Virus record (IMG/VR): IMGVR_UViG_3300006350_000047
Span: 1 to 28,423 of that record
Source of the DNA: a virus
Length of the DNA: 28,423 nt
Strand: one strand, 5' to 3'
How positions within the stretch are numbered: position 1 is the first letter of the stretch; each line of letters opens with the position of its first letter. The translations under genes were made by a program, and so were the position numbers. This document shows, piece after piece, positions 7,363 through 26,977 of this stretch. The notes under the pieces were generated by a model, which did no database searches, was not told where the DNA came from, and saw nothing but the letters and a program-made list of their open reading frames with translations.

Positions 7363-7621
7363 ATCTAAAAACATTAATGAATTAATTGACGACACTTTTA
7401 TGGACAAGAACAAATTCTCTTTAACGATTGAGAACATCGTTAAAGATAGTAACAGAACCCTGAGTTACATTGATGCTATTGTTGACTTCTGTGAGTCGAA
7501 AGACATAGAAGTTGATTCAGTTACTAAGTTGATAGCACCAACTCTAAAGGAAAAGATTAAAGCAGAAGCAATAAAGTTAAACTTTATAAAGAAAACAACT
7601 AAAGCAGTGTTACCTATATGA
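7352..7621 (+). CDS. 33: Late transcription co-activator gp33
   Basis: The 89-residue protein matches the T4 gp33 layout: a variable N-terminus, then a helical core (IENIVKDS, DAIVDFCESKDIEVDSVTKLI, LKEKIKAEAIKLNFI) that in T4 binds the beta-flap of RNA polymerase and connects it to the sliding clamp gp45. The acidic-hydrophobic clamp-binding tail of T4 gp33 is not obvious here; the protein ends in a hydrophobic AVLPI. The ATG at 7352 overlaps the exonuclease gene by 11 bases; a GTG at 7340 is less likely. The next gene is 59, as in the 59-33-32 cluster of T4-type phages. Confidence 0.78.
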   Translation: MPSKSKNINELIDDTFMDKNKFSLTIENIVKDSNRTLSYIDAIVDFCESKDIEVDSVTKLIAPTLKEKIKAEAIKLNFIKKTTKAVLPI

Positions 7622-8190
7622 ATGCATTTGATTGTTATTCAATCTACCTAGCAATTAAAGCACACTTCTCTAGAAAAGGATACGATTACTTTAAATATAA
7701 TGGTCGTACAAAAGCATCTGTAGCAAATTTTAATGAAAGAAAAGACAGATACTTCTTTGAGAAACTTGCTAACAAATATAATAAACAAGAATTAGAATCA
7801 TACTTTGTATCTAACTTCTTATCTAATTCTAACCTATGGGTAGGAGAAATGAATGATAAGAACTTCCTTGATTGGAAGAAAAAGATACAGAGTATTTCTT
7901 ATTTGTATGAGAATGATTTAAAAACTATTGTTGATAGGTGTGGTAGTTTAAATAATGCAATGAAGTGTAAGAATTTCTCACACTCTACAGTAATTAAACT
8001 ATACCTTGGTGATCATATCATGCCAGAAACTATGGTATTGTTAAATAGGGTAACAGGTTTCATAGAAAGATATGATACACTACTCAGTGATTCTATCTGG
8101 AAAAATGTATCAAACCTCTTGCAAAAATATGATCCATTTGTTATAGTGGATTACGATAAGATTAAATCTATTACAATAGGAAATTTATGA
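7618..8190 (+). CDS. 59: Helicase loader gp59
   Basis: At 190 residues it is close to T4 gp59 (217). The N-terminal segment with a Tyr/Lys-rich start and RKDRYFFEKLANKYNKQELESYFVSNFLSNSNLWVG-type pattern (about residues 40-76) matches the best conserved part of gp59 well. The protein would load the replicative helicase gp41 on gp32-coated forked DNA. It overlaps gp33 by ATGA (7618-7621) and is followed, after one gene, by 32, consistent with its partner. Confidence 0.88.
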   Translation: MNAFDCYSIYLAIKAHFSRKGYDYFKYNGRTKASVANFNERKDRYFFEKLANKYNKQELESYFVSNFLSNSNLWVGEMNDKNFLDWKKKIQSISYLYENDLKTIVDRCGSLNNAMKCKNFSHSTVIKLYLGDHIMPETMVLLNRVTGFIERYDTLLSDSIWKNVSNLLQKYDPFVIVDYDKIKSITIGNL

Positions 8191-8525
8191 GCAAGTTATT
8201 CGACTCGGAAATAGTCCAAAAAGAAATAGAAGAAATGATGGCAACCTATATGGATGTGATGATGAAAGTTCCATACTTTACTAGGATGAATGAAGAGCAA
8301 AGACAAGACGTAATAGATGATCTAGAGACATTAGTGAACAAACAAGAGACCCTATATAGTAGGGCATACCTTATGAATGATGAAGACAGTGAACTTGTTA
8401 AAGAGAACTTTAGAAATGCTGCCAAGGAGTTAGGTGTACCAGAGCATCTGGTGGGTCTACCTGTTTTTAAAGAAGCGAGAAAGGCATTGCAATCTATGAG
8501 AGATAACCTTGACAAACTCTTATAA
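8187..8525 (+). CDS. DUF1825-like cyanobacterial-type protein
   Basis: The N-terminus FDSEIVQKE (residues 5-13) is the hallmark of DUF1825, a family of small helical proteins found in cyanobacteria and cyanophages. The rest (112 residues in all) is helical and acidic, ending in a Leu/Lys-rich helix. Function is unknown. It starts by ATGA overlap with 59. Its 3' end carries the consensus promoter for gene 32. Its presence in the replication cluster supports a cyanobacterial host. Confidence 0.8.
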   Translation: MSKLFDSEIVQKEIEEMMATYMDVMMKVPYFTRMNEEQRQDVIDDLETLVNKQETLYSRAYLMNDEDSELVKENFRNAAKELGVPEHLVGLPVFKEARKALQSMRDNLDKLL

Positions 8526-12383: not shown

Positions 12384-13049
12384 ATGAAAATAGAAGATAT
12401 TAGAAAGAATATAGTAGGTGAATTTGGTATTGCCAATTCAAATAGGTATCAGATAGCTTTTTTACCTAAAACAGGTTCACGTTCTCTTGGTGAAGCATTA
12501 GGTTATTCACCTACTGAACAACCAATTACTATGGAAAGGAAATTTGCAGGTGATTTAGATACACAACAAACGCAAAAGATTAGTTTCCTTGCCGATGAAG
12601 TACAAGTTCCTGGATATAGTATTGCTACTGGTGATTTAAGAGGTGCAGTTCCTGGTATTAATATGAAGTATGCTCATACTAAGTCATTTCCAGAGTGTCA
12701 GATAACATTTATGATGGATTATGACCATACTCCATATAAAATAATTCAAAAATGGGGTGAATTTATATTTCAGCATGATGAAAGTGATATAGCAGCTTCT
12801 AGAGGACGTGCATCACCCGATAGTTTTATAAGAACTAATTATTATGATGATTATACTGCAGATCTTATTATTGATAAGATTGAAACAGGAGATAAGGTAG
12901 TATCTAGATATAGATTAATTAATGCCTTTCCTTATACTGTATCTAGTATGACTTATAGTAATGGTCCTAACCAACCAGTTAAATTTATGGCAAACTTTTA
13001 TTTTGAAGTTTTGAGAGAAGAAAAAGATATCGCTGAAGTCGATATATAG
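12384..13049 (+). CDS. Tail-tube-like baseplate protein, gp54/gp19-type
   Basis: The 221-residue protein has the tail-tube fold pattern: FLADEVQVPGYSI (about residues 68-80) is the typical start of the tube strand-loop, then KSFPECQITFMMDYDHTPYKIIQKWGEFI near 101-128, and a late strand pair (SRYRLINAFPYTVSSMTYS, FMANFYFEVL). In T4 the tube-like proteins near the hub genes are gp48 and gp54 (tube initiator), while gp19 forms the tube itself. The position next to 26 argues for a gp54-like initiator. It is first in the tail operon, behind a late promoter. The exact T4 equivalent is uncertain. Confidence 0.65.
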   Translation: MKIEDIRKNIVGEFGIANSNRYQIAFLPKTGSRSLGEALGYSPTEQPITMERKFAGDLDTQQTQKISFLADEVQVPGYSIATGDLRGAVPGINMKYAHTKSFPECQITFMMDYDHTPYKIIQKWGEFIFQHDESDIAASRGRASPDSFIRTNYYDDYTADLIIDKIETGDKVVSRYRLINAFPYTVSSMTYSNGPNQPVKFMANFYFEVLREEKDIAEVDI

Positions 13050-13070
13050 AATATAACTATATCATAAATT

Positions 13071-13772
13071 ATGGCATTACCGTCGTTAAATACCCCGACC
13101 TATGAGTTGACTGTACCATCAACTAAAAAGAAAATAAAGTATAGACCATTTTTGGTCAAAGAAGAAAAGATTCTCTTGTTGGCATTGGAGTCAGAAGATG
13201 ACAAACAAATTTCATTGGCAATGCAGGATCTTATGGAAGCATGTATTTTAACAAAGGGGATTAAAGTACAGGATCTTGCATCTTTCGATGTTGAATATAT
13301 CTTTTTAAATATTAGGGCTAAATCTATAGGTGAAACAATTGATGTTAAATTGATTTGCCCTGATGATAATACAACTGAGGTTACAACTAGAATACCTATT
13401 GATAAAATCAAAGTGAAGTATGATAAAGAACATACTAATCAAATACAAATTAATGATGATCTTTGGGTTGAAATGAAGTATCCAAATATTGATTCTCTTG
13501 CTATACAAGAAGAAACTATAGATGATACATTTAAACTTATATCAAAATCAATTGCTAAGATTTATAATGAAGAAGATGTTTGGGATTCTTCTACAACTTC
13601 AGACAATGAGTTTGAAGAATTTATTGAATCAATGAATAGTAAGCAGTTTGCTAAAATTCAGACATTCTTTGAAACTATGCCATCACTTAAGCATACCGTT
13701 AAGATAAGAAATCCCAATACTAAGGTCGAAAGTTCTTATACAATTGAGGGGTTGTCCAATTTTTTCATGTAG
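13071..13772 (+). CDS. 26: Baseplate hub assembly protein gp26
   Basis: A 233-residue protein beginning MALPSLNTPTYELTVPSTKK, then KYRPFLVKEEKILLLALES, the conserved start of the gp26-type hub assembly family (T4 gp26, 208 residues). The C-terminal half is acidic and helical. In T4 it is needed to build the central hub. The last codons AAT TTT TTC ATG TAG contain a slippery heptamer (13760-13766). About 5% or more of ribosomes could shift to -1 and add 64 residues (see the feature at 13766-13960); that rate is a guess, the site is seen. The gene lies just after the tube-like protein. Confidence 0.82.
   Translation: MALPSLNTPTYELTVPSTKKKIKYRPFLVKEEKILLLALESEDDKQISLAMQDLMEACILTKGIKVQDLASFDVEYIFLNIRAKSIGETIDVKLICPDDNTTEVTTRIPIDKIKVKYDKEHTNQIQINDDLWVEMKYPNIDSLAIQEETIDDTFKLISKSIAKIYNEEDVWDSSTTSDNEFEEFIESMNSKQFAKIQTFFETMPSLKHTVKIRNPNTKVESSYTIEGLSNFFM
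13760..13766 (+). promoter_or_regulatory. Slippery heptamer T TTT TTC for -1 frameshifting
   Basis: The sequence T TTT TTC fits the X XXY YYZ rule in the gene 26 frame. It sits two codons before the stop TAG, so a shift to -1 just after it enters the open frame at 13766. An SD-like GAGGGG (13746-13751) ends 8 bases upstream, the kind of element that stimulates -1 slippage in bacteria. No clear downstream hairpin or pseudoknot is visible. Confidence 0.72.
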
Positions 13773-13960
13773 CCCTCTTCCATACCTCACTTGAAATCCA
13801 TATAAGGATTAATTTTGGTTTGATGCAACATCATAAGTATAGCTTTGCAGATATTAATAATATGCTTCCTTGGGAAAGAGACATATACGTTGACTTATTA
13901 AGGCAACACTTGGAAGAGGAAAAGAAAAAGATACAAGAAGCAAAACAACGTAGAATGTAG
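13766..13960 (+). CDS. 51: gp51-type frameshift extension of gene 26
   Basis: In the -1 frame, 64 codons stay open from the slippery site to TAG at 13958-13960, reading HVALFHTSLEIHIRINFGLM and on to NMLPWERDIYVDLLRQHLEEE. The last part is a Trp/Glu-rich helix followed by a Lys-rich coil, the usual character of tail assembly chaperone T-type extensions. Expected fusion product: 232 + 64 = 296 residues. The nearest start in this frame, ATG 13823, has no good ribosome binding site at the right distance, so fusion is more likely than a separate 45-residue protein. In T4 genes 26 and 51 are adjacent hub assembly genes. Confidence 0.72.
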   Translation, partial: HVALFHTSLEIHIRINFGLMQHHKYSFADINNMLPWERDIYVDLLRQHLEEEKKKIQEAKQRRM

Positions 13961-15742
13961 ATGACTGCACTCTTAAAGTCAAATAAAGATTCTTTAGCTA
14001 TGCGAGGTTATACTAATCTCGTGAAGTCAATTCATGATGTCAAAACTGCAGTTTTCGGAAAACATCCAGATAAACCTCCAGAGGAAGAAGAGAAGAGTGA
14101 TACAAAAGCTGAAGGTAGTTTAAAGAAAGAAACTGCTGAATTAGCAAAAGTTGCTAGATTACTACTTTCTATCACTAAAGCACAATTAGATTATGAACGT
14201 AAAAGGTTTGGTTCATTAAAGCTTGGTAAAGATAAAGTTGTGCATTCTGCTGCCTTTTCAAGGCGTATGAAGAAAAAGAAAGAACTTGAAACGGATTATG
14301 CATTAAATCTAGATAAGGGTTTTCGTAGATTGATCAGAAACATGCTTAGAAATGCATGGAAAGCAGTTTGGAAAAGATTAAAGAACGGAATAAAGAGATT
14401 AATAGGTAAGAAGGGAATAAAGTTAGTTAGAAAGGTAGCTCGTTTTCTAAGGAAATGGAAATTAATAGCTAAACGTGCTTGGAGAACTTTATTAAGACCT
14501 TTTAGACAATTAAGAAGATTTATAACAAGTTTACCTAAGAAAGCAGCAAAGTTTGTTTGGAATAGAGCAGCTAAACCTTTATTAAGTGGTGCAAAGAATT
14601 TAGCAAAGAATGTATGGGGTAAAGTTACTGGTAAAGGACTTGCTAAGATAGGTACTAAGCAAATTGCCAAGAAAACTGCTGAGAAAACAGCTACTAAAGG
14701 TATGCTGCAGATGTTTAAGAACTTTTATAAAGGTGCTGTAGCACCAGGTTTGAAACGAATAGCAATCGTTGGTGCTCTAATTGATTTTGCTATAAATTAC
14801 TTTATATTTAAGGAACCTCTTCCACAAGCAGGAGTTAAAGCAGTAGGATCTGGTCTTGGTGCTTTCGTAGGTATGAAACTTGGTTTATTGGCAGGTCCTG
14901 CTATCGGAGCAGCATTAGGTAGTTTTATACCTATTCCTGGTGTTGGAACATGGCTTGGTGGTCTTAGTGGTGCTAAAGTAGGTCTATTTGTTGGTGGTTT
15001 AGTTGGTAGTTTTATTGGTGAATTTATTGGTGGATGGTTGTATAACATGTTCACTGGGGGTGCTAAAGAAGGTGCTAAGGTTAAGAAACCTCAATTAATC
15101 ATGGTGGGTGAGGGTAAAGAGGATGAGTATATCGTTCCTAAGAGTAGATTGGCATGGTTTGTTGCACCATTACTTGGTGATATGGTTAGTGAAGCATTAC
15201 CAAAAGAAACAGAACAAGAAAGTGCTGAATTAGAAAGAGAAACAAAAGATTTAAAAGGTGATCAACCTGCAGATATAGAAAAGATGCTTCCTAAAGAAGA
15301 AAAGAAACAAGGATTATGGAATAATTTGAAATCAGGAGTTACATCATATCTCAAGCGTACACCTATAGGTATGGGTATGAAGTTGTTTAGTCATATTAAG
15401 AATAAGTTTAGTAAATCTAATACTATTAACAAAGGTGCTGTGCATACTACTATGCAGAATTTGGACAATTTCATTTCTAAATATAATTCACCTAAAGGTG
15501 ATAGTCCAGATCAAATAACACCTGATACTGCACAACCTACATCACCTAAACTAAATAACATAGAACCAGAACCAGAACCAGATTTATCTGAAGTTGTACC
15601 TCCATTAATAGAGGTTATAGGTTCTATACCAAGTGCATCTACTCAAAAACCACAATTATTACCTTTCCCAATTCCAGTTAATGTTGGTGGTAGTGAAAAA
15701 GAAGCATATGCTGTATGGGGCAAGAAGATAGTAGGTAACTAA
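13961..15742 (+). CDS. Tape-measure-like tail protein with glycine zipper, 593 aa (positional match to gp29)
   Basis: The protein has an acidic N-terminus, a strongly basic region of amphipathic helices (about residues 100-245, many Arg/Lys/Trp), then a long Gly-rich hydrophobic region (about 286-365, repeated GxxxG such as GSGLGAFVGMKLG) and the motif VGEGKEDEYIVPKSRL (about 381-396). That motif resembles the VGE-x-G-x-E-x-x-P-x-S segment of phage tape measure proteins. The C-terminal part is low complexity. T4 gp29, the tape measure, is of similar size (about 590) and follows the 26/51 genes. The membrane-active segments could help make the DNA channel. Start ATG directly abuts the previous stop. 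Confidence 0.6.
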   Translation: MTALLKSNKDSLAMRGYTNLVKSIHDVKTAVFGKHPDKPPEEEEKSDTKAEGSLKKETAELAKVARLLLSITKAQLDYERKRFGSLKLGKDKVVHSAAFSRRMKKKKELETDYALNLDKGFRRLIRNMLRNAWKAVWKRLKNGIKRLIGKKGIKLVRKVARFLRKWKLIAKRAWRTLLRPFRQLRRFITSLPKKAAKFVWNRAAKPLLSGAKNLAKNVWGKVTGKGLAKIGTKQIAKKTAEKTATKGMLQMFKNFYKGAVAPGLKRIAIVGALIDFAINYFIFKEPLPQAGVKAVGSGLGAFVGMKLGLLAGPAIGAALGSFIPIPGVGTWLGGLSGAKVGLFVGGLVGSFIGEFIGGWLYNMFTGGAKEGAKVKKPQLIMVGEGKEDEYIVPKSRLAWFVAPLLGDMVSEALPKETEQESAELERETKDLKGDQPADIEKMLPKEEKKQGLWNNLKSGVTSYLKRTPIGMGMKLFSHIKNKFSKSNTINKGAVHTTMQNLDNFISKYNSPKGDSPDQITPDTAQPTSPKLNNIEPEPEPDLSEVVPPLIEVIGSIPSASTQKPQLLPFPIPVNVGGSEKEAYAVWGKKIVGN

Positions 15743-15744
15743 CT

Positions 15745-18408
15745 ATGGCAGATAAGGTATGGATGTCACAAAGAAGATCTGTATTAGATCAAGCCGAATA
15801 CTTTAGAAGTATAGGTAAGACAGATCTACAGGCAAAGTTAGAAACCCATGTCAAGGCAATGGACTATGGTGTTGACGGATTTGGTAAGCCATATAAGAAA
15901 TTAAATAAATCTCAGTTAGCTAACTTAATGGCAGCTGAGCCAGTTCCAAATAAATTACCTAAAGCATCTAAAAGTGATAAAACAGATGCTATTGATGTTG
16001 CTGCAATACCATCAGGTAAACCAAGAAAATCAATGGATGGTTTACTTAAAGAAGCACAACAGAAAGGTGGTGCTCTTGTAACTCAGAAACCATCAACTCC
16101 TGTTGTTAAAGGTGGAGCAATTGTTCCATCACCAGGAGGAGCATTAACAAAAGATGGTGGTGGAATTCCTCCTGGTAAATCAAAGAAAGATATATTAAAA
16201 CAACAACTACGTATTGGTGCTAAACGTGGACTTCGTGGTGCTAAACGTATAGGTAAAGCTATAGGTGAATGGGATGGTACATTCACTGATAGATTGACTA
16301 TGGCATCAAAACCAAAGGGTATGGAACCTGGTGATGTTGCTATTGAAAGAAAAAAAGGGCAGAAAGCATTACCAGCAAGTGTATCTCCTATGCAAGATAC
16401 TAGTTGGGATAAGGATCCAGATGAAGATTGGGAAGGTGATCCAATGGATCATCGTGATATTCCATGGGCTAAAAGAGGTATAGATGATTTAAGAGATCAA
16501 ATAGATAAAGATCCAAATATACCATTCCCTAAAGATAAGACACCATGGTATGATGATATTACGGGTCTTATGAAGAAACGTGATGAGTCAATAGAACAGG
16601 ATGAACAAGAAAAGAAAGCAAAAGCAGATGTAATAGAACCTGAGGTATTAGATGAAGGTAGTACTGAAGGTGATAAAGCTCTTCCTATTGCTGATGGTAA
16701 AAAGAGAAGGAAAACTAGAGGTAAAACTGGAGTAGGATTTGGTAGTAAAGCAAAACCTAAGAAAGGTAGTGGATCTCCTTTAACAGGAGGAATGAAATCA
16801 GTATTAGAAAATATAATTAAAACTAGAAAAGCAATATTTGATCTTTATAAGATTTCAAAAGATAGGTTTAAGTTAAGAAAGAAAGTTGATAAACAAATGG
16901 ACACCTCAATCGGTGCCAAGACAAGAGAAAGGAATATTGAAGGACCACCTGATAGTGATCAGAAAGCACTTCCAGGTTCTAAAGGTACAGATGACAACTT
17001 AAAAGAAGATAAAGATAATAATGAAAGTTGGCTTGAAAAGATGCTGATGGATACTATGGGAACTTGGTTAGCTATGTTCCTTACTCCATTGTTTATTGAT
17101 TCAATGCATAATATGCTTAATGATCAAGCAGATGAAATTGAAGATCAAGAAAAAGAATTAGATAAACAAGATCCAACTAAGGGTGAAGAGAAAGAATTAG
17201 CTGATGCAGAGAAACAAGCTGCTGATATTCAAGCAGAAGTAGATACTGCTGGAGAACCTAAACTAGCACCAGATAAACCAGAAGATGAAAAAACTGTAGG
17301 TGAAGGTGGTAAAATTGACACTAATAAATTCTTAAGTACTCCTACTCCACGAGAGACATCTAACTTTGGTGGAATGGAACCTAATGATGGTGGTCAGCAA
17401 GAAGTTCCTCAATTTAAAGAAGGTGGTGTAATCAAACCTTCACCTTCTGTTAATAGTAAGAGTGGTGGTGGCAACTTAGGTAAACAACCAAAAATACCAT
17501 CGAAATCAGTTAGTAAACCTGGTCCAACTTCAAAAAGTACAAATACTAAAACTGGATTATCTCAACTTGGTAAAACAGATATTGGTGGTATTGGAAAGAA
17601 AGTACTTGAGAAAGTTGTTAGTCCAGCAAAGTCAATCTTTAAATTACCTAACTTAGTAGCAAAGAAAGCTTTAAAGATTGGTAAGAGAATATCTAAACCA
17701 TTAGGTAAGTTGATGAAGAGTGATACCATGAAGAAATTAGCCATGAGTCCTCTGAATCCTTTTGCTGGAGCGATTAAAGGTATTCGTGGAATGATGGGTA
17801 AGGATGGTAAGGATGGTGAAGATCTTTCAAGAGGTGAACAACTAAAACAAGATTTCCAGACCAAAAAGCAAGAATTAAAAGATAGAGTTGCTAGTGGTGG
17901 GGGAGATAAAGTAGTTAATGTTGGTGGGACAACAATGAATCTCCAACAAGTTAAGGAGGACTATCCTAATATACATGCAGCTATAACACAATCTGGTCAA
18001 ATATCTGAAGGAAGTACTAGTACAACTATGACTACTGGTACTACTACATTTGGTGCTGTAAAAGATACTATAAGTAAGGGAAGAGAAAAGTTAAAAGGTA
18101 TTAGAAGTGCTTTAGGTAGTGGTCTTAAACGTGGATTACTTGGTATTGCTGATCACTATACAGGTAATAGATTTGACTTTGATGGTATGAATGTAAAACC
18201 AGATGAAGTTAAAGATGCTTCTATAGAAAAAGGTCAGTCAGTAACAGATAAAATGATGCAAGCAATGGAAAGTATAAACACAAAGAGTGTATCTACTGCA
18301 CAAAAGAATCAACAATCAACAGATAATAACAAAATGTCTCTAAATAGCCAAAAGAGTTCTACAATGTCTCCAGCTGCTAGAAATTCATCTCTACAACCAC
18401 GATTATGA
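15745..18408 (+). CDS. Large low-complexity tail protein, tape-measure or hub-associated, 887 aa
   Basis: The longest gene here, rich in Lys, Asp, Gly, Pro and Ser, with long stretches predicted to be disordered. A single hydrophobic helix (about residues 434-452, MDTMGTWLAMFLTPLFIDSM) divides it. QFKEGGVIKPSPS (about 554-566) resembles the first half of the tape measure segment FxxGGVxxxP, and KDGKDGED gives a short collagen-like run. The C-terminus is Ser/Gln-rich. It lies between the glycine-zipper protein and gp27, so it is a virion component by context. It has no recognised T4 match. Whether this or the preceding protein sets tail length cannot be decided from sequence. Confidence 0.6.
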   Translation: MADKVWMSQRRSVLDQAEYFRSIGKTDLQAKLETHVKAMDYGVDGFGKPYKKLNKSQLANLMAAEPVPNKLPKASKSDKTDAIDVAAIPSGKPRKSMDGLLKEAQQKGGALVTQKPSTPVVKGGAIVPSPGGALTKDGGGIPPGKSKKDILKQQLRIGAKRGLRGAKRIGKAIGEWDGTFTDRLTMASKPKGMEPGDVAIERKKGQKALPASVSPMQDTSWDKDPDEDWEGDPMDHRDIPWAKRGIDDLRDQIDKDPNIPFPKDKTPWYDDITGLMKKRDESIEQDEQEKKAKADVIEPEVLDEGSTEGDKALPIADGKKRRKTRGKTGVGFGSKAKPKKGSGSPLTGGMKSVLENIIKTRKAIFDLYKISKDRFKLRKKVDKQMDTSIGAKTRERNIEGPPDSDQKALPGSKGTDDNLKEDKDNNESWLEKMLMDTMGTWLAMFLTPLFIDSMHNMLNDQADEIEDQEKELDKQDPTKGEEKELADAEKQAADIQAEVDTAGEPKLAPDKPEDEKTVGEGGKIDTNKFLSTPTPRETSNFGGMEPNDGGQQEVPQFKEGGVIKPSPSVNSKSGGGNLGKQPKIPSKSVSKPGPTSKSTNTKTGLSQLGKTDIGGIGKKVLEKVVSPAKSIFKLPNLVAKKALKIGKRISKPLGKLMKSDTMKKLAMSPLNPFAGAIKGIRGMMGKDGKDGEDLSRGEQLKQDFQTKKQELKDRVASGGGDKVVNVGGTTMNLQQVKEDYPNIHAAITQSGQISEGSTSTTMTTGTTTFGAVKDTISKGREKLKGIRSALGSGLKRGLLGIADHYTGNRFDFDGMNVKPDEVKDASIEKGQSVTDKMMQAMESINTKSVSTAQKNQQSTDNNKMSLNSQKSSTMSPAARNSSLQPRL

Positions 18409-25945: not shown

Positions 25946-26161
25946 ATGGTCAACTTGCGTGACAACATTCTGAATAATCAAATCGTATACTACAATGGTT
26001 TGATTGCAAAGCATTCACAAAACGTAGAAATTTATCTCAACCAACCTGTAGGTATAGGTGAGCACTCAGATGTTATGGCAGCGATAGATGGCGAGATTGC
26101 TGCTATTGCTCAAGCACATGAGAAAATTGAAATCATTAATCATTATTTTTTAGGCAGATGA
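25946..26161 (+). CDS. Small hypothetical helical protein, 71 aa
   Basis: A soluble, fully helical-looking protein with heptad-like Ile/Ala spacing in the second half (MAAIDGEIAAIAQAHEKIEIINHYF), perhaps a short coiled coil that oligomerises. It begins 3 bases after the nuclease gene and ends in an ATGA overlap with the next gene. No known function. Confidence 0.68.
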   Translation: MVNLRDNILNNQIVYYNGLIAKHSQNVEIYLNQPVGIGEHSDVMAAIDGEIAAIAQAHEKIEIINHYFLGR

Positions 26162-26325
26162 TATTCGCATCACACCCTTCGGTATATCATTTACCAGGTA
26201 CGTGGGAAAAGCAACCACTTATACAGCATGGTAACTGGGACCCAATCGTAACCTCTCCCCTAGTATTATTGATATTTGCTATATTATTCATTGGAGTTGG
26301 TTATGCCCTTTCCAAGCGTACGTGA
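26158..26325 (+). CDS. Single-helix membrane microprotein, 55 aa
   Basis: A 55-codon frame from ATG 26158 (ATGA overlap) to TGA 26323-26325. The N-terminal half is polar with several His and Trp residues; the C-terminal half is one membrane helix (SPLVLLIFAILFIGVGYALS) followed by Lys-Arg-Thr. The layout is like that of small photosystem or membrane-complex subunits, but I cannot assign it to one. It overlaps the start of pcyA by 23 bases. Confidence 0.55.
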   Translation: MIFASHPSVYHLPGTWEKQPLIQHGNWDPIVTSPLVLLIFAILFIGVGYALSKRT

Positions 26326-26977
26326 TGACCTTGCTAATCTAATTAGATATAGTATCGCAGACTTCCCAGAGTTAGAGCAAATAATTACTCTGCATGACTT
26401 AATAAGACACGAGAAGGTTACTATTAAGAATGAAATGTGGAAGTCTAAAGGACTAAGAAGGATTCATTTAGAGACAGCAGAAACAGATAAAATACAAATC
26501 GTCCATTGTGTCTTTTGGCCAGACCCTGCATACTATCTGCCTATATTTGGTGCAGATATAATACAAACTCCTGCAGGGGTTACTGCTGCCATAGTAGATA
26601 TATCACCTGTGGAAGGTGTGGATTGGAGTGACAAGTTATCACCCATTAGTAAACAGATACAATTTAAAGATAATCGTCAACTACCCGAATGGGGTGAGAT
26701 ATTCTCACCTTACTGTAAGTTTGCAAGACTAAAAACAGAAGAGGAGCAAAACAAATTCTATCAGGTAGTTCTCGAGTATCTCAGGATATACTGCACTGAA
26801 GTGCAAACAGCACAATGGTCTGATGATTGGGTTAGTATCATGAAAAGATTAGATGACCAGTGTTGGTATACTACTTCGCAAAGAAAAAATAAGAAGACAA
26901 AAGCAGTGCTTAGTCAATGGTTTAGTGAAGAGTGGGCAGATAAATATATAAACAACATACTATTTGATAAACCCTAG
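26303..26977 (+). CDS. pcyA: Phycocyanobilin:ferredoxin oxidoreductase, PcyA type
   Basis: It reduces biliverdin to phycocyanobilin with four electrons from ferredoxin. The 224-residue protein has the ferredoxin-dependent bilin reductase layout: IHLE (His55, Glu57), VHC (His68), LPIFGAD (Asp85), AAIVDISP, LPEWGEIFSPYCKF, and a C-terminal FSEEWADKYINNILFD. Spacing matches the catalytic set of PcyA (His74, Glu76, His88, Asp105), and the Glu favours PcyA over PebS or PebA. The start at 26303 is the natural ATG; a TTG at 26276 is unlikely. The gene stops one base before gene 17. Its substrate maker, ho1, is 20 kb upstream. Confidence 0.87.
   Translation: MPFPSVRDDLANLIRYSIADFPELEQIITLHDLIRHEKVTIKNEMWKSKGLRRIHLETAETDKIQIVHCVFWPDPAYYLPIFGADIIQTPAGVTAAIVDISPVEGVDWSDKLSPISKQIQFKDNRQLPEWGEIFSPYCKFARLKTEEEQNKFYQVVLEYLRIYCTEVQTAQWSDDWVSIMKRLDDQCWYTTSQRKNKKTKAVLSQWFSEEWADKYINNILFDKP

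Follow-up and report, generated by a model that had tools for sequence, protein, structure and literature searches.

A predicted programmed -1 frameshift linking a gp26-type tail assembly chaperone gene to a gp51-type extension in a T4-like viral sequence

The gp26 locus

The sequence analysed here, referred to throughout as the window, is a stretch of 28,423 nucleotides of viral DNA (IMG/VR record IMGVR_UViG_3300006350_000047). It carries a gp26-type hub gene together with genes for head closure, a tail tube, a tail lysozyme and a ferredoxin oxidoreductase that belongs to a phage auxiliary family, a gene content that fits a T4-like cyanophage. The oxidoreductase (26276-26977; phrog_7278, 1.5e-86) falls in the PHROGs category auxiliary metabolism and host takeover, and may be a cyanophage-type bilin reductase. 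The gp26 gene lies between a tail tube-type gene on its 5' side and a tape-measure/lysin-like gene on its 3' side (Table 1), which is the position of a tail assembly chaperone; as a tape measure gene the latter is weakly assigned (phrog_167, 2.5e-7). The tail gene cluster also includes an 887-aa ORF (15745-18408) for which neither Pfam nor PHROGs gave a match at E <= 1.

Table 1. Features of the gp26 locus, in window coordinates
Feature	Position	Strand	Evidence or remark
Preceding gene, tail tube protein type	12384..13049	+	PF23849 1.3e-20; phrog_45 7.7e-33
gp26-type gene for the short form of the tail assembly chaperone; 233 aa, counting the stop	13071..13772	+	PF12322 1.7e-68; phrog_150 2.3e-71
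SD-like GAGGGG	13746..13751	+	8 nt 5' of slip site; GAGG[A/G] enriched there in relatives; putative function
Slippery heptamer T TTT TTC	13760..13766	+	In frame, TTT and TTC being gp26 codons; X XXY YYZ form
-1 extension, gp51-type C-terminal domain	13766..13960	+	64 codons and TAG; phrog_634 1.5e-24; phrog_150 C-terminal end
Conserved beginning of extension, ahead of any conserved ATG	13769..13822	+	pN/pS 0.505 vs 1.1 or more in other frames; first helix spans segment
Zero-frame stop TAG closing the short form	13770..13772	+	Sequence
Next gene, tape-measure/tail-lysin-like, 593 aa	13961..15742	+	phrog_1047 1.8e-13, phrog_167 2.5e-7; weak

The 3' end of gp26 reads GAG GGG TTG TCC AAT TTT TTC ATG TAG. 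An earlier, sequence-only reading of this DNA had proposed a slippery T TTT TTC here, in the correct frame and two codons ahead of the stop, with GAGGGG eight bases upstream, and the sequence agrees on all these points. A -1 slip at the heptamer reads TTT TTT, then CAT GTA GCC CTC and onward as far as a TAG at 13958-13960, which abuts the ATG at 13961, just as had been stated for the 64-codon frame; the predicted fusion has 232 + 64 = 296 residues. The ATG that was noted in this frame at 13823 is present, though a TTG at 13820 is an earlier standard start, and no ATG, GTG or TTG precedes 13820.

Searches of PDB sequences with a profile gave no convincing gp26 relative, and an NCBIfam search gave no match. 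When the fold was checked against the HK97 tail assembly chaperone, 2ob9 was among the top matches (probability 0.60/0.44), but with E values of 1.3/2.6.

Two other sites in the window resemble shift sites. The ORF at 25946-26161 (region 25946-26325) has T TTT TTA three codons ahead of its stop and a -1 frame open for 57 codons; since the ATG at 26158 in that frame begins an ORF (26158-26325) with a family of its own, phrog_8051, a plain overlap is likelier. The DNA helicase loader ORF (7618-8190, region 7618-8525) has A AAT TTA one codon ahead of its stop, and the ORF at 8187-8525, in the -1 frame relative to it, has an overlapping ATG; this is probably ordinary coupling.

Conservation of the slippery heptamer

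Relatives were drawn from viral-contig scans and from named phages; a viral-contig scan with KVP40 gp26 returned only two loci. An in-frame TTTTTTN lay one to three codons ahead of the stop in 250/251 loci with a readable junction, many of which are near-duplicates. The set was thinned for comparison to 91 sequences sharing <85% amino acid identity, with three Ackermannviridae left out, and T TTT TTN was in frame, one to three codons ahead of the gp26 stop, in every one of these (91/91). Despite this variable spacing, the extension keeps the -1 register. As in-frame TTTTTTN heptamers number only three in the 7,927 codons (35 ORFs) of the window, yet occur in all 91 relatives in the same context, chance is excluded as the source of the heptamer.

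Among 228 codon columns of gp26, the third base is invariant in just two (next best column 0.90, median 0.52). The first is the X codon ahead of TTT, which may specify Ser, Asn, Asp or Ala but has T as its last base throughout, and the second is the TTT codon itself, which is always TTT. The Z codon, by contrast, varies (TTC in 67 relatives, TTT in 12, TTA in 9 and TTG in 3). A variable Z codon beside two fixed columns fits the X XXY YYZ prediction, and is not a pattern that amino acid conservation predicts. The codon-usage expectation for the two invariant columns is about 1e-18 and 1e-17, figures that are not true P values, as the sequences share ancestry. These data bear on the reading that the heptamer is a by-product of Ser/Asn-Phe-Phe conservation and AT-rich codon usage, the -1 frame being a degraded gene. 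The second codon does always specify Phe, the genome is AT-rich, and TTT makes up 65% of Phe codons in the compared genes; however, this reading leaves the constant T ending of a codon of changing meaning unaccounted for, the codon past TTT alternates between Phe and Leu, and every relative has a -1 frame that is open and subject to purifying selection. It is already contradicted, and its probability is negligible.

Selection and start codons in the -1 frame

The -1 frame was open in 106/106 sequences, and both other frames were closed in 106/106. Over the 17 codons ahead of the first usable ATG, pN/pS was 0.505 in the -1 frame (pS filter 0.1-0.6; 0.431 when the filter was omitted) and 1.1-1.36 in the others, which were computed without the filter; the count is rough, and only the contrast between frames is used. 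Judged from this comparison of sequences, the extension is under protein-level selection from the slip site on. The alignment of the -1 frame across related cyanophages that the sequence-only reading had proposed as a check returned both an invariant heptamer and a frame that stays open, with conservation beginning at the slip site.

In addition to its phrog_634 match, the extension aligns with positions 239-280 of 282 at the C-terminus of phrog_150, and certain members of the gp26 family therefore carry it. It is modelled as helical (pLDDT 88), with a helix at residues 2-23, and the closest viral structure models include gp51 proteins.

The main alternative is that gp51 exists as a protein in its own right, whose synthesis begins by translational coupling or reinitiation past the gp26 stop; its start would be a non-standard codon (GTA or the like) near 13769, the TTG at 13820 or the ATG at 13823. 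In the public records of many phages (S-PM2, P-SSM2 and KVP40), gp51 is entered as a distinct CDS, and an ATG at +2 (TRATG) overlaps or abuts the gp26 stop in KVP40, K571, YB07, phiM9, AF3, Atu_ph04, Cr30 and phiM12, with a TRATG start also in Pootjesviridae. Reinitiation is possible in certain relatives, in which the gp26 stop coincides with an ATG or GTG or is closely followed by one. In the window, however, there is no standard start ahead of 13820, and in 46/91 relatives no ATG, GTG or TTG occurs at or before +11 (11 nt past the stop); in several, TAA stands immediately 5' of TTT TTT in the -1 frame. Initiation at 13823 cannot reach 13769..13822, and by both the alignment and the model it would cost the protein conserved residues and the greater part of its first helix. 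Separate initiation also leaves the invariant third bases of the heptamer unexplained, and relatives that bear an ATG keep them too: relatives with a gene 51 start and no heptamer had been named as the finding that would speak against a frameshift, but KVP40, K571, YB07, Pootjesviridae, Cr30 and phiM12 all retain the heptamer, as do phiM9, AF3 and Atu_ph04. The expected lack of a start codon held for the window clade and about half of the relatives, but not for those with an ATG or GTG at the stop. Coupled initiation may add to the frameshift in ATG-bearing relatives, or replace it there, but it cannot account for the window, because the window has no start at the gp26 stop; as an explanation of this locus, a separately initiated gp51 is very unlikely.

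The three Ackermannviridae (Det7, KpS110 and Bue1) have a related gp51-like extension in the same -1 register but no canonical heptamer. The junction in Det7 (L088, 2290-2470), KpS110 (L255) and Bue1 (L256) reads ATT TTC ATT TAA, with no X XXY YYZ and no ATG, GTG or TTG near the stop. The Det7 extension corresponds to phrog_9633, a family of unknown function.

Signals flanking the slip site

Canonical bacterial -1 frameshifting involves an upstream SD-like stimulator about 8-14 nt ahead of the site, and a downstream stem-loop or pseudoknot is common, not obligatory. Where relatives have an upstream Glu-Gly pair, the Glu codon is GAG in 46/75 (29% elsewhere) and the Gly codon is GGA or GGG in 56/75 (35% elsewhere); on codon choice, this GAGG[A/G] enrichment is an SD-like signal about 8 nt ahead of the heptamer. 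The 45 nt on the 3' side fold better than shuffles across the 91 relatives (mean z -1.8 vs 0.04 for an upstream control). Unlike many relatives, the window has no significant stem-loop 3' of the heptamer (z -0.32 and 0.19). Two clades of cyanophage relatives have differing strong hairpins of 12-17 bp that begin 4-5 nt 3' of the slip site, although the sequences in the per-clade stem counts were picked for having a stem, and hence are not independent evidence. The hairpins occur 4-50 nt 3' of the heptamer in L039, L045, L112 and their clade mates. RNAalifold on mixed relatives found no common structure, different clades using different stems. A GAGGGG/CCCTC stem around the slip site was considered and set aside, as it folded no better than shuffles (z -0.06).

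A fusion protein identical to that of ribosomal slippage would also arise if RNA polymerase slipped on the T run to give mixed mRNAs; the window has a T run of six, and in certain relatives the run extends to eight. Efficient transcriptional slippage requires runs longer than six; in most relatives the run is no longer than the X XXY YY that tRNA slippage requires, and enrichment of an upstream SD-like sequence is not predicted. Transcriptional slippage is consequently regarded as extremely improbable.

T4 genes 26 and 51

The sequence-only reading had also taken the order of genes 26 and 51 in T4 as a sign of the same chaperone pair, and gp51 as equivalent to the extension domain. The two T4 genes are indeed adjacent and homologous, but they are divergently transcribed (L254, 103-1529). 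T4 gp51 (249 aa) is more than the extension, being a full gp26 paralog plus the extension: residues 3-248 match positions 13-280 of 282 in the phrog_150 profile (E 2.6e-84). It also matches PF12322 (3.9e-52), which is common to window gp26, T4 gp26 and T4 gp51, and its C-terminus aligns with the window extension (E 2.4e-5). As T4 gp26 (208 aa) ends ahead of the extension, T4 encodes the short and long forms as two genes; by this family matching, gp51 of T4 represents a long form that is naturally encoded in frame. The two T4 proteins are paralogs, yet are annotated with different roles. Both are listed among hub assembly chaperones (PMC3004832), and PMC10885494 describes, after Vladimirov et al. 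2022, separate short-form and long-form genes in 'some T4-like phages'.

Discussion

The sequence evidence makes it highly probable that gp26 and the extension form one gene, in which a programmed -1 frameshift would give a short form and a long fusion. With an invariant heptamer, an open and conserved -1 frame and no start in the window clade, the proposal that gp51 is here the tail of a 296-residue fusion, and not a separate gene, is well supported. In the proposed mechanism, the gene would encode the short tail assembly chaperone (233 aa) as its major product; at T TTT TTC, the Phe-tRNAs in the P and A sites would shift back by one base, probably aided by pairing of the upstream GAGGGG with 16S rRNA. 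A minority of ribosomes would then pass the TAG at 13770 and read 64 further codons to 13960, yielding as a minor product the fusion, whose gp51-type domain is predicted to be helical. If lambda G/GT is a guide, both forms would act jointly on the tape measure protein in tail and hub assembly.

More tentatively, and with less than even probability, the gp26 family may switch during evolution between ways of making both chaperone forms. These would be the slip site alone (window clade), the slip site with clade-specific hairpins, the slip site with coupled initiation at TRATG (KVP40, Pootjesviridae), duplication of the full gene (T4), and the -1 extension lacking a canonical heptamer in Ackermannviridae, which may use an undescribed slip signal.

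For annotation, the gp26/gp51 locus of cyanophages and related marine phages is best entered as one frameshifted gene, neither as two genes nor as a gap. The result backs the view that gp26 and gp51 of T4 are paired tail assembly chaperones, and the many naturally occurring versions of the site, which differ in Z base, hairpins or TRATG, offer a ready comparative set for frameshift signals in cyanobacterial hosts.

The window extension aligns with phrog_634, the cyanophage 'baseplate hub assembly catalyst' gp51 (E 1.5e-24), but that family is annotated as a stand-alone gene whose assigned start codons are not conserved. The slip sequence of lambda G/GT differs from that of the window, where the site lies two codons ahead of the stop, and gp26 showed no sequence homology to lambda-type chaperones. 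Common to both are a short chaperone with a minor -1 fusion, predicted in the case of the window, a shift near the 3' end, and a gene directly 5' of the tape measure gene (Xu, Hendrix, Duda 2004, as cited in PMC3711429). In Vandenendeviridae and Andersonviridae, a -1 shift occurs at a T-rich 3' site of TAC-N adjoining the tape measure gene, and annotations often show the extension as a hypothetical gene in its own right (PMC12846349); these are other phage families, however, and their invariant motif is GTTTTT, not T TTT TTN. In the T4-like phages, gp26/gp51 are described as tail assembly chaperones (TAC-N/TAC-NC; Vladimirov, Gautam, Davidson 2022, Virology 566:9-15, as cited in PMC12846349 and PMC10885494), and poly-T slippery sequences in TAC-N genes are known (PMC12846349). 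A short and a long chaperone from one frameshifted gene are usual in long-tailed phages and, by these citing papers, already described for the T4-like group. The window shares with that group the PF12322/phrog_150 family, the (here predicted) short and long forms and the poly-T slip site; it would produce its long form by a -1 shift within one gene, whereas in T4 that form comes from a distinct gene, the paralog 51.
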